Below, one piece after another: positions 19,823 to 25,373 of a stretch of DNA of 64,000 nt. The stretch is taken from contig CALFSX010000012.1 of the NCBI GenBank assembly GCA_937916515.1, forward strand, positions 1 to 64,000. The letters run 5' to 3'. A model generated the notes under the pieces. The model searched no databases. It saw nothing but the letters and a program-made list of their open reading frames with translations, and was not told the origin of the DNA. Both the position numbers and the translations under genes were made by a program. The DNA comes from an uncultured Planctomycetaceae bacterium. Lineage in GTDB: Bacteria; Planctomycetota; Planctomycetia; Planctomycetales; Planctomycetaceae. The first letter of the stretch is position 1. Each line of letters begins with the position of its first letter.

Positions 19823-20056
19823 CGCTCCGGCTTGACAAAGCGCGTTCCCGAGATTGTGGCCGAAGTCGCCAGAATTCGGTGGTCATAGACGCCTGCCCGA
19901 AGCCTGACGACTCCGGCTAATGGGATTTCATTTTCGCGTGGCTGCGTTCAATGTTTGACACGTTGAGTGTCAGAAGTCTTTGCCGCAGTATATTATGCGA
20001 GCATTAGATGCCGCAAAACTCACCGCACTTTAGTTTTGCAAAACCGCTCCACTGGA

Positions 20057-21928
20057 ATGCCCGTCATGCTTCGAACGCCCCGCCCCATCATGTTGACGCT
20101 GTTCGCAACAGTTTTCATAAACCTGACATCGCTGAACATTGGCATCGCCGAAGACGCCACATCCGTCACGTCGCTTGCCGACGGATTGCGACCATTTGTA
20201 AAAATTCTGACGGGTAAAGAATCTCAGTTTACGCTAAGCGGCACATCGGTCGTTCAAATCGACGGGAAGCCTCAGTCAATCACTATGCAGCTGACGCGGC
20301 ACAGCGATGAATCATTCGACCTTTCGCTGGCTCATCCGGAATACGCCGTGGAAATTCGTCGCCGCGAAGAATCCACGATCATGATTCTTCCGCTTCACAA
20401 AGTTGCTTACAAAGGCACGGGCGATGTTCCAGCCGAATATCGCTTGAACCCCGATGGCATTCTTCAACGAATCATCAGCGATGCATCGACCGTCAAACCC
20501 GCCGTCGCCATTTTGTCATCCGTAACATCAGAGTTTATCGACCCGATGATTTCACTCGTCGCCGAACCACTAAAGCCAAAACGCGACCCGCAAACAGCCA
20601 GGTGGATGCTGACCGCCGAATCTCCCATTCGCTTTTCCATGAGTGGCAAAGTGCAGATACGTGGTGATTTTGGAGAGGTACAATTAAGCGTCGCATCGTC
20701 CCCCGAAAAACCACTGACTCAGATTCAATCCGACATAAACATCGTAGAGCTATCTCGCAGCGAACTTGAACAGACGCTGGTACGAGGCATCCACCGAGCG
20801 ACCGAAATTCTGGCTCCAGCAGCGGTTTTGAAGAAACCAGAACCTCAGGGGAAGAAAGTCGCAAACGGCGAACTACGCTGGATCGAAGGCCAGCGAGTTG
20901 CCATTTTGCAGGGCACACCAGAACAGATCGGAACAGCTCACGGCCAGCTGCTTCACGACGAAGCAACTCGCTGCATCGAATCGGTGTTGTACACCTTCGG
21001 CACAGCTCACGTCATCCGCACAGGCAAGTGGTTTCGACACGACATTCAGGAAGCCTACGCGCAGCTGTCGCCGCATATTCCCGAACGACATAAACGCGAA
21101 ACACGATCGCTGGCTGCAGCATTGAACCTTCCCGCCGAAACGCTGGAAGTACTCAACGTGTTTCCCGAGATGTTTCATTGCTCCGGCTTCGCAGTGTTTG
21201 GGTCAGCCACGACAGACGGCAAGCTGTATCACGGTCGAGTGCTCGATTACATGACAACGATCGGCCTGCAGGATGCTGCCACAACATTCATCGTTCAACC
21301 AGACGGACACCTGTCGTTCGCCAACGTTGGTTATGCAGCCTTTATCGGCAGCGTCAGCGGAATGAACACCGCAGCCATTTCACTGGGAGAAATGGGAGGC
21401 CGCGGCGAAGGCAACTGGAACGGCGTTCCCATGGCCACGCTGATGCGGCGCGCACTGGAAGAATGCAACACTCTGGACCAGGTGATCGAACTTTGGACAA
21501 ACAGCCCACGAACCTGCGAATACTATTACGTGTTCGCCGACGGAAAGACAAATCGCGCCGTGGGAGTTGCCGCGTTACCGGAATCGATCGATTTCATTCA
21601 ACCGGGCGAAGGCCACGAACGACTGGGGGAAGGCATTCCGGATACAGTTGTGCTGTCCGCTGGCAGCCGATTGGAAACTCTACGGCAACGAGTCACCGAA
21701 CAACACGGAAAGATCGACGCAGAAGTTGGCAAATGGTTAATGAGCCGTCCAGTGGCAATGCAATCAAACCTGCACAACGTGCTGTTTATTCCTGAAGACG
21801 GAATATTCTACGTGGCCAACGCCAGCCACTCCAAACCAGCGGCTGAGCAACCTTACGTGAAACTGAACCTGAAACAATTGCTGCCAGCAAAAGAACAGCT
21901 TCCGCTGAAAGCCGCAGCTGCTCAGTAA
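20057..21928 (+). CDS. C45-family Ntn-hydrolase/acyltransferase with an extra N-terminal domain
   Basis: 623 aa from ATG 20057. An N-terminal hydrophobic segment (MLTLFATVFINLTSLNIGIA) suggests export. Residues of roughly 30-270 form a beta-rich domain of unknown family that recalls periplasmic lipid- or polymer-binding domains. The C-terminal 330 residues match peptidase C45/phospholipase B-like autoproteolytic hydrolases: AILQGTPEQIGTAHGQLL, the processing-site Cys375 in FHCSGFAVFG, DGKLYHGRVLDYM, ISLGEMGGRG and the closing NLHNVLFIPEDGIFYVANA. The family self-cleaves before the Cys and hydrolyses amides. C45 enzymes are usually near 350 aa, so the N-terminal domain is an addition. Substrate unknown. 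Confidence 0.85.
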   Translation: MPVMLRTPRPIMLTLFATVFINLTSLNIGIAEDATSVTSLADGLRPFVKILTGKESQFTLSGTSVVQIDGKPQSITMQLTRHSDESFDLSLAHPEYAVEIRRREESTIMILPLHKVAYKGTGDVPAEYRLNPDGILQRIISDASTVKPAVAILSSVTSEFIDPMISLVAEPLKPKRDPQTARWMLTAESPIRFSMSGKVQIRGDFGEVQLSVASSPEKPLTQIQSDINIVELSRSELEQTLVRGIHRATEILAPAAVLKKPEPQGKKVANGELRWIEGQRVAILQGTPEQIGTAHGQLLHDEATRCIESVLYTFGTAHVIRTGKWFRHDIQEAYAQLSPHIPERHKRETRSLAAALNLPAETLEVLNVFPEMFHCSGFAVFGSATTDGKLYHGRVLDYMTTIGLQDAATTFIVQPDGHLSFANVGYAAFIGSVSGMNTAAISLGEMGGRGEGNWNGVPMATLMRRALEECNTLDQVIELWTNSPRTCEYYYVFADGKTNRAVGVAALPESIDFIQPGEGHERLGEGIPDTVVLSAGSRLETLRQRVTEQHGKIDAEVGKWLMSRPVAMQSNLHNVLFIPEDGIFYVANASHSKPAAEQPYVKLNLKQLLPAKEQLPLKAAAAQ

Positions 21929-21968: not shown

Positions 21969-22370
21969 TCAACGCAACAGATAACGAATCAGCTGAGAGA
22001 TCCAATCGCTTAGAAATGCGGCTCCGACAACGAACGAAAAAATGTTCGCCAACACAATCACAATCGCATCGCGATCCGGGGCAGCGAACAGTTTCTTGTT
22101 CAACACAAACCGAAAGAACAACACTTCCGCAACGGGAGCGTATGTTTCGGCGATCACCAAATACGCCACCTGCCCCCAGGCAGGAAGAATAGTTGCAGCC
22201 ATTAACAACACAACAACTGGATAGGTAAACGCTGTCAGCAGAAAACCAAACATCAGTCTTGCCTGCGTGCTGTGTTGTTCGCTTAGGCCTAACATCAATA
22301 CCGGCGTTTCCAACGCTACGGTGGCGACATACCCAAACAGAAAAAACAGAAACAGTTCCGGAGTGCTCAT
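21969..22370 (-). CDS. Small polytopic membrane protein of unknown function
   Basis: 133 aa, about four transmembrane segments: LFLFFLFGYVATVALETPVLML, ARLMFGFLLTAFTYPVVVLLMAA, VAYLVIAETYAPVAEVLFF and AIVIVLANIFSFVVGAAFL. Acidic residues inside predicted helices (ALETP, IAETYAPVAEV) hint at ion or metal handling, but no family was recognised. Its start is 3 nt from the stop of the 338-aa membrane protein upstream, so the two are almost certainly translated together. It converges on the C45 gene with a 40-bp gap. Confidence 0.7.
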   Translation of the reverse strand: MSTPELFLFFLFGYVATVALETPVLMLGLSEQHSTQARLMFGFLLTAFTYPVVVLLMAATILPAWGQVAYLVIAETYAPVAEVLFFRFVLNKKLFAAPDRDAIVIVLANIFSFVVGAAFLSDWISQLIRYLLR

Positions 22371-22373
22371 CTG

Positions 22374-23390
22374 TTACAGCAACCGCAGCAGGAAGGGTAT
22401 TTCAGCCAGCACATGTAACATCGCGACGGTAAAATAAACGTCTCGCGTGGTTGTATAATCCGCCGTGAAACAAACCCACAGCAGAACTACGACAGCTGCC
22501 GAAGCAGCCAACAGAACTCCAATCAGGCGACGAGAAAAATCGGATCGCTTCATCAAAGGAATACTGCGAAAGCCTTCACTGAACACTCGCCCACTGGCGA
22601 CCGGCACAGCCAGCATCCACACACCATAGTGCAGCAGTTCCAGGAACGCGTGCGTGGCAACCAACCTGTTAGCGTCCACTATGGTCACTATTGTGGCTCC
22701 GGCGTGATGAATAACCTGAGACTTCGCAGCCTGAGCCTGTTCCGGCAATAGAGCATCTGCTGCTGCTGCGGGACCGAAAGTCCACAGCAATACCAGCAGA
22801 ACTGGAACGCTACCAACACAGCATCGATAAGCCGTCTGCCACTCTTGGCGAGACTTTGCAATCTCACGGTCCAGAACCCACAGCCCCATCAGCGGATGCA
22901 GAAACACCATCAGCAGGGGCAACAAAATCGGTTGCAGCCACGCCAGCCCGGCAAACGCCAGTCCAATCGGCAAAGCATAGTCCCAGTTCTTTTTCGGCGG
23001 CTGAAGACTTCGCAACCAGACCAACGATGTCACCCACAGAATCAACGCGGTATTCCAGAGCCCAATCGTCCATAACACCGATTGCGGTGACCACCGCATC
23101 CAGCCCGCCAAACGCGTCAACAACGGAAAGGCAATCGTCAGGCTGATCACTCCCACAGCGGAGACCATAAAAAACGGTTTCAGTCGCCCCATTCTGGCAG
23201 GTAAGCGAGTCAGAAAGTATCGCGACTCAACATAGTTGTGTGGCCCCGCAAACAGAAACACGATTCCAATCGACATCGTCACAGGAGCCGTCGCCGTCAG
23301 AACCCAGGCCATCACCATAAACACGGATGCCGCTGCGGCAAACGTCTGGCGCGAACAATTCTCAGCAGGTTGTTTCAGGACTGTCGACAC
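22374..23390 (-). CDS. Polytopic membrane protein of unknown function
   Basis: 338 aa from GTG, eight to nine hydrophobic segments. Striking, likely conserved motif: FLFAGPHNYVESRYFLTRLPARMG after the second helix, with His, Asn, Glu and Arg at the membrane face. The C-terminus carries YFTVAMLHVLAEIPFLLRLL. Cysteines and further His lie in loops (YRCCVG, QVIHHAGATIV). I recognise the AGPHN-type motif as a recurring feature of uncharacterised membrane proteins but cannot name a function. It is tightly coupled to the 133-aa membrane protein downstream and preceded by two small membrane protein genes on the same strand. Confidence 0.75.
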   Translation of the reverse strand: MSTVLKQPAENCSRQTFAAAASVFMVMAWVLTATAPVTMSIGIVFLFAGPHNYVESRYFLTRLPARMGRLKPFFMVSAVGVISLTIAFPLLTRLAGWMRWSPQSVLWTIGLWNTALILWVTSLVWLRSLQPPKKNWDYALPIGLAFAGLAWLQPILLPLLMVFLHPLMGLWVLDREIAKSRQEWQTAYRCCVGSVPVLLVLLWTFGPAAAADALLPEQAQAAKSQVIHHAGATIVTIVDANRLVATHAFLELLHYGVWMLAVPVASGRVFSEGFRSIPLMKRSDFSRRLIGVLLAASAAVVVLLWVCFTADYTTTRDVYFTVAMLHVLAEIPFLLRLL

Positions 23391-23450
23391 AAGAAAATCC
23401 AGACGTGCAATTCAGGTTCGCCATCTACGCCATCAGCCGTTAAAAGAGTA

Positions 23451-23699
23451 TTAACCAGGCGGATTCTCACGCACGTCACGTTCCCGCGTTGACTCATTTT
23501 GCAGCTTGCGACGCTTGATGAACCCGGCAATCACTGTTGCGACGGCAAAGAAAACGCCCCCGACAATCAACATGATCACGCCGCCGGATATAAGCAGGAC
23601 CTCAAGTGAAACCATATCGGCAAGCAATTGAGGGAAGCCATTAAGAACCAGCATGACCAGGCTTTCTGAGCAGGACCTTCCGAGAACAAGCAACAGCAT
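23451..23699 (-). CDS. Small membrane protein, one or two helices
   Basis: About 82 aa; start uncertain (ATG 23699, TTG 23705 or ATG 23615). A strong transmembrane helix (VLLISGGVIMLIVGGVFFAVATVIAGFI) is followed by a positively charged cytoplasmic tail (KRRKLQNESTRERDVREN). The positive-inside pattern supports a real protein. It lies between two other membrane protein genes on the same strand, 25-60 bp from each. No known family. Confidence 0.5.
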   Translation of the reverse strand: MLLLVLGRSCSESLVMLVLNGFPQLLADMVSLEVLLISGGVIMLIVGGVFFAVATVIAGFIKRRKLQNESTRERDVRENPPG

Positions 23700-23729
23700 T
23701 TGCAAATCGAACAGCTGTGCTTACAACCA

Positions 23730-24161
23730 CTAAGGACCGGATGAAGCAGAGGAAAGCGGTTGAGAAACCGGGTCAGAACCGACTTCCGAATCATGGGGCA
23801 ATCTACGTCCAACCGGCCCCACAGGTCGCCAGTTGGCGACGGACTTTGCGTGCTCAGCATGCGAGCGATACGCGAATGTCGTGGCTACGATTGTCGCAAG
23901 AACAAGTGCAGAAGCGACGCTCAGGGCCAATTTCTTCCTTGCTCCGTTTCCAGCCTTTCCAGCCAAAACCCCGGCTATTGCCACAGCAACAGACAGCAAA
24001 ATCCCCGCCATCGCGACCGTGGGAGCTGTGGGAAGTTCCATTTGAGTGCCCGGAATCTCCGGAGGCAACGGTGGGATATCGCCAAGTGCGGTTCCGTGCA
24101 GAGCAACCACAACTAAAAACATCATCAAAATGCGGATCAAAAGCTCTATTACCTGCGTCAT
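23730..24161 (-). CDS. Small membrane protein with signal peptide
   Basis: 143 aa. An N-terminal helix (LLIRILMMFLVVVALHGTALG) reads as a signal peptide or anchor, then a short Pro-rich segment (IPPLPPEIPGTQMELPTAP). Two further helices follow, VAMAGILLSVAVAIAGVLAG and LALSVASALVLATIVATTFAY, then a polar Ser/Pro-rich tail. Family not recognised. It is the first gene of a four-gene minus-strand run of membrane proteins (24161 to 21969) and is separated from the upstream glycan cluster by a hairpin at 24212-24232. Confidence 0.6.
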   Translation of the reverse strand: MTQVIELLIRILMMFLVVVALHGTALGDIPPLPPEIPGTQMELPTAPTVAMAGILLSVAVAIAGVLAGKAGNGARKKLALSVASALVLATIVATTFAYRSHAEHAKSVANWRPVGPVGRRLPHDSEVGSDPVSQPLSSASSGP

Positions 24162-24317: not shown

Positions 24318-25373
24318 TCACAACGTAATGGCGGCGGCGGACATCAATTCGTATTTCGCCTGCCCACCGGACAGGCATTCACGAACTCGGACCTGTTCTT
24401 CCTCTGAAATGGATAGCTTTTGCGACACCTTAAAAGGAGGAAGTTCGGCAACGTTTAGCCGCGGATTCAGCTGCAACCCATCGAACTTGTCGGCGATCGA
24501 CTTAATTGACTTTCCAGGGTTTTCGCAGAATCCCTCATAGGTCAAATTCAGGATTCGACTATCCGCTACGGTTGCCAGTTGACGATCCATTTCCACATCG
24601 ATATCGATCACCTGCCGACAGACTTCGTCAACATAGGCCAGCGGATCACCAGCTTCCGTGATGGACGCACTCTGCAATCCCCACGCCAAAGACTTGTCTC
24701 CCTGAATATTTTCTCGAGCCACAATCAGCGACTGAGCCACAAACATCGGATTGCGACGCTCAACAACAAACCTGGCGTTCGGCAGAGCTTTTCCAAGCAA
24801 CTCAACGGCAAATGCATTTCGATTATTCTTGTTCAGCAGTGGCTTACCAAAGACTGAAGTCCAGGCATCAAAAAAGCTGCACATTTCCGTGGCAGCATCA
24901 TCAGAAATATCCTGAGCAGGCAGGTAACGATCTTCGCCCAGCCATCGATTCCACAGATGAAAGGCATCGTTGGGGCCACGAAAACGAGTTGTCTGACCAT
25001 AAAAGTTTTTGAAGTCCGGACGAGCGGCCCATGGAATCAGCCTTTGAAGCCTTGCGGCAGTCAAAGGAGACTTGGGGAACATGGCTGTCAGATTGGTTGG
25101 ACACGTCACATCCAGAAAGGCTGACAACGCCTGATAAACCAACGTTGTGCCACTTCGAGGAGCTCCAACAATGAACACCAAAGGGAGCTGCGAACTCGCA
25201 CACTTTGCCTGAATGCGTTTTTCGAAAACGCTAAGCACAGAATCTACCGGAATTGCGCCCAGCCGAAGACCTTCACGAAACAACGCAGCGTATGCCGCTG
25301 GGTGTCCAGACTTCAGCATTCGCCCCACAAGGCCAAATGGGTCGGTAAAATTCGAGAGCGGATTTTTGGACAT
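24318..25373 (-). CDS. Sulfotransferase (PAPS-dependent)
   Basis: 351 aa. Transfers sulfate from PAPS to a hydroxyl or amino group. The 5'-phosphosulfate loop is clear in FIVGAPRSGTTLVYQAL (about residues 67-83), and a 3'-phosphate-binding-like segment reads ARFVVERRNPMFVAQSLIVAR (RxxP-x12-S style). The fold's later segments, LNLTYEGFCENPGKSIKSI, also fit. It is the last gene of the glycan cluster and follows the WecB-type epimerase by about 160 bp, so the likely acceptor is the polysaccharide or glycolipid built by the cluster. That acceptor is inference. Confidence 0.88.
   Translation of the reverse strand: MSKNPLSNFTDPFGLVGRMLKSGHPAAYAALFREGLRLGAIPVDSVLSVFEKRIQAKCASSQLPLVFIVGAPRSGTTLVYQALSAFLDVTCPTNLTAMFPKSPLTAARLQRLIPWAARPDFKNFYGQTTRFRGPNDAFHLWNRWLGEDRYLPAQDISDDAATEMCSFFDAWTSVFGKPLLNKNNRNAFAVELLGKALPNARFVVERRNPMFVAQSLIVARENIQGDKSLAWGLQSASITEAGDPLAYVDEVCRQVIDIDVEMDRQLATVADSRILNLTYEGFCENPGKSIKSIADKFDGLQLNPRLNVAELPPFKVSQKLSISEEEQVRVRECLSGGQAKYELMSAAAITL

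Follow-up and report, generated by a model that had tools for sequence, protein, structure and literature searches.

The Brp/Blh carotenoid dioxygenases (PF15461, here BCD) are multi-helix membrane proteins of about 300 aa with several conserved histidine sites, and carotenoid oxygenases have a four-histidine iron site. Conserved histidines and glutamates within membranes are found in transporters and haem proteins too. The CTERM sorting systems combine a polytopic enzyme with exported targets bearing a membrane helix and a basic tail (PMC11980579), a plan that the locus presented here resembles. The myxosortase MrtX of the CPBP family has the motifs EExxxR and HxxxN in its membrane helices (PMC11980579). 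We compared these systems with four adjacent genes of an uncultured planctomycete, found in a window of 64,000 nucleotides (the whole stretch of DNA analysed).

Four membrane protein genes and their relation to described families

The genes are arranged in the order A, a second A-like gene, B and C, with three bases separating B from C (Table 1). The first-pass annotation had described a run of four minus-strand membrane protein genes without a known family, the two largest 3 bp apart; the spacing was confirmed, all four products are hydrophobic and none rises above a Pfam or NCBIfam cut-off. The annotation was also right about the genes themselves, and missed that the small ones look like a third, fast-evolving partner, which we call A.

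Table 1 Features of the module and its flanks, in window positions
Feature	Coordinates	Strand	Remarks
A, 143 aa	24161-23730	minus	ATG; signal-like start, GDIPPLPP junction, two predicted membrane helices after it
Second A-like gene, 84-aa ORF from TTG	23705-23451	minus	LLADM junction, one membrane helix, KRR tail
B, 338 aa	23390-22374	minus	GTG start; ten predicted membrane helices
FAGPHNYVESRYFLTRLPAR motif, B residues 47-66	23193-23252	minus	end of TM2 and the loop after it
C, 133 aa	22370-21969	minus	ATG; small membrane protein, about four helices (by reading)
653-aa protein	19967-21928	plus	converges on the module
Sulfotransferase family gene	24318-25373	minus	directly upstream of the module

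Pfam held no family for B and C and gave the two small proteins sub-cut-off matches only, as NCBIfam did for all four. PADLOC anti-phage models returned no family for eight proteins including these four (E up to 0.1), and PDB sequences yielded eight matches to B, with a best E of 0.55, and none to C. Neither a transporter nor an enzyme family was thus found in the libraries searched, and literature searches on motif strings and on a combination of terms retrieved no paper. DUF7942 (PF25637) showed weak similarity to 20 of 68 C members (best E 4.7e-4), whereas it scored the C match of locus L066 below cut-off, at 17.9 vs 26.7 bits; its profile matched one of 20 genomes, again below cut-off, and none of 14 control genomes, and it is a possible, very distant relative of C. 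No family tested includes the proteins of the module, and any claim of novelty is limited to that.

Homologues of the small genes adjoin B elsewhere. For the 143-aa protein, L010 has one at 36% identity (E 6e-14) and L008 a weaker one; the second A-like gene matches a protein in L009 (39% over 54 aa, E 2e-5); proteins of 64-68 aa with LLAD[LI]SPLP, similar by eye, adjoin B in L008 and L009. Both window genes look like A-type proteins, and since these related proteins measure 64-68 aa, the true start of the second gene is likely the in-frame ATG at 23654, giving about 67 aa.

The module is flanked in the window by a convergent C45-type acyltransferase gene on one side and a sulfotransferase gene on the other. 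NCBIfam matches the middle of the acyltransferase protein to the C45 autoproteolytic acyltransferase/hydrolase family (E 3.5e-39); its long N-terminal part is unassigned. For the sulfotransferase (Pfam E 6.6e-21), the six related loci compared held no homologue beside B beyond a match at E 0.14. One promoter-like signal was counted (1.6 in shuffles) and seven terminator-like signals (4.6 in shuffles, sd 2.0).

Conservation of the B-C pair and of an upstream exported protein

Seven genomes among 58 related ones contain B, that of the window being one of the seven, and a scan of GTDB contigs retrieved 82 relatives, from which 80 loci were kept, with some contigs shared between the two sets. Together with the small-gene-type proteins upstream of B described below, this recurrence indicates that the gene group is more than chance. 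The loci, picked through patterns over the B residues H51 and H165, are labelled Planctomycetota (among them the isolate Zavarzinella formosa), Acidobacteria, Melainabacteria and Cyanobacteria, Opitutae, Gemmatimonadetes and Myxococcales; one is labelled Actinomycetota, yet its scaffold name reads Acidobacteria. As 78 of the 80 are labelled MAG, phylum labels outside Planctomycetota are to be taken with care.

A match to the C profile lies downstream of B in 68 of the 80 loci, or in 68 of 74 if six of the 12 misses, in which the contig stops at most 255 bases from B, are set aside. C is on the strand of B in every case (68/68), and its domain starts between -60 and 200 bases from the B stop in 65. 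The identities of B and C correlate over the loci (r 0.58, against a maximum of 0.21 in 500 permutations). The first-pass annotation had made its proposed membrane complex depend on conservation of the pair, and B and C do stay together, both in loci labelled as several phyla and in a diverged B family. Six loci (L035, L043, L048, L050, L073 and L089) have B without a recognisable C although the contig continues.

No neighbour other than A, B and C recurred in more than ten of the 80 loci. The three commonest extra neighbours (by reading, dehydratase and lipoate-type genes) sit in acidobacterial loci, ten of which have a dehydratase-like gene 3' of the module (L039, L042, L049, L052, L054, L060, L067, L069, L075 and L080) and most of these also a putative lipoate gene, again by reading and 3' of the module; this neighbourhood looks like clade synteny. 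Viral contigs gave no match to family 1 B (the family of the window protein), nor did plasmids to two family 1 B proteins and a second B of the other family.

The third component was sought as an ORF with a hydrophobic signal-like stretch closing in [AGS][DN] and followed soon by proline. Such an A-type ORF was found upstream of B in 66 of the 73 loci with at least 500 upstream bases, vs 17 of 119 same-strand control windows 3 kb away, a rate at which some of the 66 may be chance; a stricter filter retained 55 of 73. The junction reads D-I, D-V or D-L in 49 of the 66, a constancy that is partly built in because the ORFs were chosen by this tag, and the [DN] may partly stem from signal-peptidase preference. 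Mean identity over 250 random pairs from 57 loci was 0.28 for A vs 0.48 for B and 0.50 for C, a lower value that fits a substrate or passenger, which would be expected to vary.

This variability brings in the possibility, which we consider unlikely but worth weighing, that B-C sorts or processes proteins, with A as its dedicated substrate. By analogy with exosortase, rhombosortase and myxosortase acting on CTERM targets, B would recognise the [DN]-hydrophobic-Pro junction of A or its membrane anchor, and cleave or modify A. The range of mature lengths (32-366 residues among the 66 picks), the divergent sequences and the presence of one to three A-like genes per locus, such as three in L151, agree with a substrate role, as do several A proteins that terminate in a membrane helix followed by Arg/Lys. 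The A protein of L155 also scores barely above the NCBIfam LPXTG_anchor cut-off (16.0 vs 15.9 bits, E 0.015). Against this reading, however, we saw by eye no shared motif immediately ahead of the helix of A, and many family 1 A proteins extend past the first helix with a second helix and more residues.

Conserved residues, predicted fold and a second branch of B

A second B family was traced from weak matches of the first B profile. Its own profile, through which the family 2 loci were picked, gave matches in 31 of the 392 Planctomycetota genomes sampled; a few of these matches are weak, and that in G165 arose via a family 1 protein. When the family 2 set lacked the family 1 protein L148, hhalign joined the two families with a probability of 98.8 and an E of 9.8e-17 over 295 columns, against 0.084 in the reversed control; the C proteins of both branches are likewise homologous (E 8.7e-11 vs 0.21 reversed). 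C lies downstream on the same strand in 17 of 20 family 2 loci and on the opposite strand in L151. The A pattern picked an ORF in 11 of the 20, of which three (L154, L158 and L163) are probably wrong frames; by eye most of the 20 show an A-type ORF, a judgement that yields no clean count. Two family 2 A proteins carry a LysM domain (L155, 2817-3602; L159, 4410-5606), which may link the module to peptidoglycan. By eye, these two proteins also share more sequence ahead of the membrane helix.

With one family 2 B (L120) as query, a single plasmid record was matched, from the cyanobacterium Aulosira laxa, on which B has an A-type protein upstream and a convergent C downstream, all annotated as 'hypothetical protein'. 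That C is convergent here indicates that the association of B and C outlives rearrangement. Used as plasmid queries in turn, the Aulosira A, B and C proteins each matched only themselves.

We aligned 105 B proteins, 77 of family 1 and 28 of family 2. The family 1 set comprises the window protein and 76 of the 80 loci; L016, L090, L091 and L093, which are a twin of L015 and incomplete or fragmented genes, were excluded. H165, H254, Y255, P263, Y319, H326 and E330 are present in all 105 proteins, H51 in 103 (two gaps), E or D at position 55 in 102 and R57 in 102. Four histidines and two carboxylates, placed on four helices, are thus invariant or nearly so. The first-pass annotation had drawn attention to a strong motif in the 338-aa protein, and this motif does hold H51, E55, R57 and Y58, part of the most conserved residue set; its use as a substrate or metal site is plausible. 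Within family 1, H51 and R57 occur in 77/77 proteins and E55 in 76/77, the counts for H51 and H165 being partly built in, since the loci were chosen by patterns over both. H247 and E251, each in 76 of 77 family 1 proteins, are replaced in family 2, which has no histidine at 247 and Q at 251 in 28/28; P166 is N there in 28/28. Given Q251 and the missing H247, the putative site as seen in family 1 is partly not universal. In C, aligned from the window and 67 of 68 loci (the partial L017 left out), E21, P51, E75, E82, F86, N109 and S112 are invariant in 68/68 proteins.

An AlphaFold model of B built from 77 sequences was confident (pLDDT 93.3, pTM 0.91) and has ten membrane helices, one of them short. 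It supersedes an earlier, weak model from seven sequences (pLDDT 68.7), with which a fold search found no match. Against the PDB, the best Foldseek E was 0.26 and the best VIA-align Z 6.8 over 88 residues, with none of at least 8, and a viral structure library gave nothing at E 0.001 (best 0.018); the absence of a clear PDB match does not prove a new fold. H51 is placed on TM2, H165 on TM6, H254 on TM8 and H326 on TM10. With the helix limits of the model and the positive-inside rule, by which the Arg/Lys-rich loops point to an N-terminus inside, the outer helix end is 14-15 residues away from H51, H254 and H326 and nine from H165. Since the histidines are at about equal depth, H165 somewhat outward, the model suggests one layer and a single buried site rather than two stacked haems.

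B-C might also transport ions or metals, A being a small accessory subunit; in keeping with this, B has ten helices and, within these or close by, conserved His, Glu and Arg, and its small companion C has invariant acids. We regard this as improbable: reading of the neighbour clusters gave no recurrent ATPase or transporter gene beside the module, the fold searches gave the B model no clear match to a transporter fold, and the single histidine layer deduced from the helix positions is more in keeping with a site than with a path.

There is good support for the existence of an A-B-C module. Our preferred reading, which we hold tentatively and at rather less than even confidence, is that the four genes form an old three-part envelope module in which B would be a metalloprotein embedded in the membrane that acts jointly with C, either on A or in concert with it. 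It starts from the gene content, conservation, diverged copies and predicted fold observed above, and from these proposes a metal, a chemistry, a complex and a role for A. A, represented here by two genes, would be exported, its mature part starting with Asp/Asn, a hydrophobic residue and soon a proline; it could carry a passenger such as LysM and would usually be anchored by one or two membrane helices. In B, the residues H51, H165, H254 and H326 with E55 and E330, plus E/Q251, would form a single buried site. That B holds a metal is plausible from its conserved residues, and by analogy the site may bind a transition metal in the manner of four-histidine non-haem iron centres, the model for this putative site, and carry out redox or hydrolytic chemistry. 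C would stabilise B or feed it protons, and A would be a dedicated partner or substrate offered to B from the outer face. A strict need for C or A may be doubtful, as 6 of 74 loci lack C and 7 of 73 lack A.

A bolder version, in which B-C is a membrane-embedded four-histidine metal enzyme of a new class that modifies or cuts dedicated exported A proteins at their [DN]-hydrophobic-Pro start, seems to us distinctly improbable. If true, it would describe an envelope protein-maturation system unrelated to sortases, exosortases, rhomboids and lipoprotein enzymes.

Comparison with Brp/Blh dioxygenases and CTERM systems

B resembles the Brp/Blh proteins in two motifs: GxPHxxx[DE], placed early in the sequence, and, in the last helix, an HxxxE-like one that only some Brp/Blh members have. 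One reading makes B a very distant relative of these proteins that oxidises a membrane lipid or isoprenoid, an idea to which we give little credence. Local comparisons of family 2 with the BCD profile do tend to align the GxPH motif, and the joint B profile reached a global E of 0.0022 vs 0.22 reversed. However, HHalign probabilities ranged from 0.2 to 27% over all comparisons, and the global E of 4e-4 came from the family 2 set that included the family 1 protein L148. With that protein taken out most of the support was gone, the global E being 0.23 vs 0.32 reversed and the local E 0.016 with a probability of 2.8%. BCD is not among the 23 families listed for the 77 family 1 B members at E up to 1, and at E 0.001 PF15461 matches nothing in the genome from which the window comes. 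We derived the BCD motifs GxPHGxxD, HFGxxD, HxxxH and PHxxL as the 80% consensus of 16 proteins (L110 gave no ORF through the filter and L119 fell below the cut-off). The second histidine after the PH histidine stands at +53 to +57 in 16/16 of these vs +114 in B, and HxxxH, present in 15 of 16, is missing from B. Unlike the Brp/Blh proteins, B also lacks HFGxxD and has the recurrent partners A and C.

Sortase, rhomboid and CPBP profiles are absent among the families listed for the 77 B members (E up to 1), and B has no conserved Cys. The myxosortase motifs EExxxR and HxxxN (PMC11980579) are missing from the conserved columns of B, which read H51xxxE55xR57, E/Q251xxH254 and H326xxxE330 instead. 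In A, the recurring tag lies at the signal-peptide junction, which sets it apart from CTERM targets. The three-gene module described here has two deeply diverged branches and was seen in planctomycetes, on a plasmid of a cyanobacterium and in MAGs labelled as several other phyla. The predicted fold of its B protein is confident and has no clear counterpart in the PDB, and the His/Glu set of that protein is almost invariant. Should B act on A, the module would provide an extra route of envelope maturation, independent of the known sorting enzymes.
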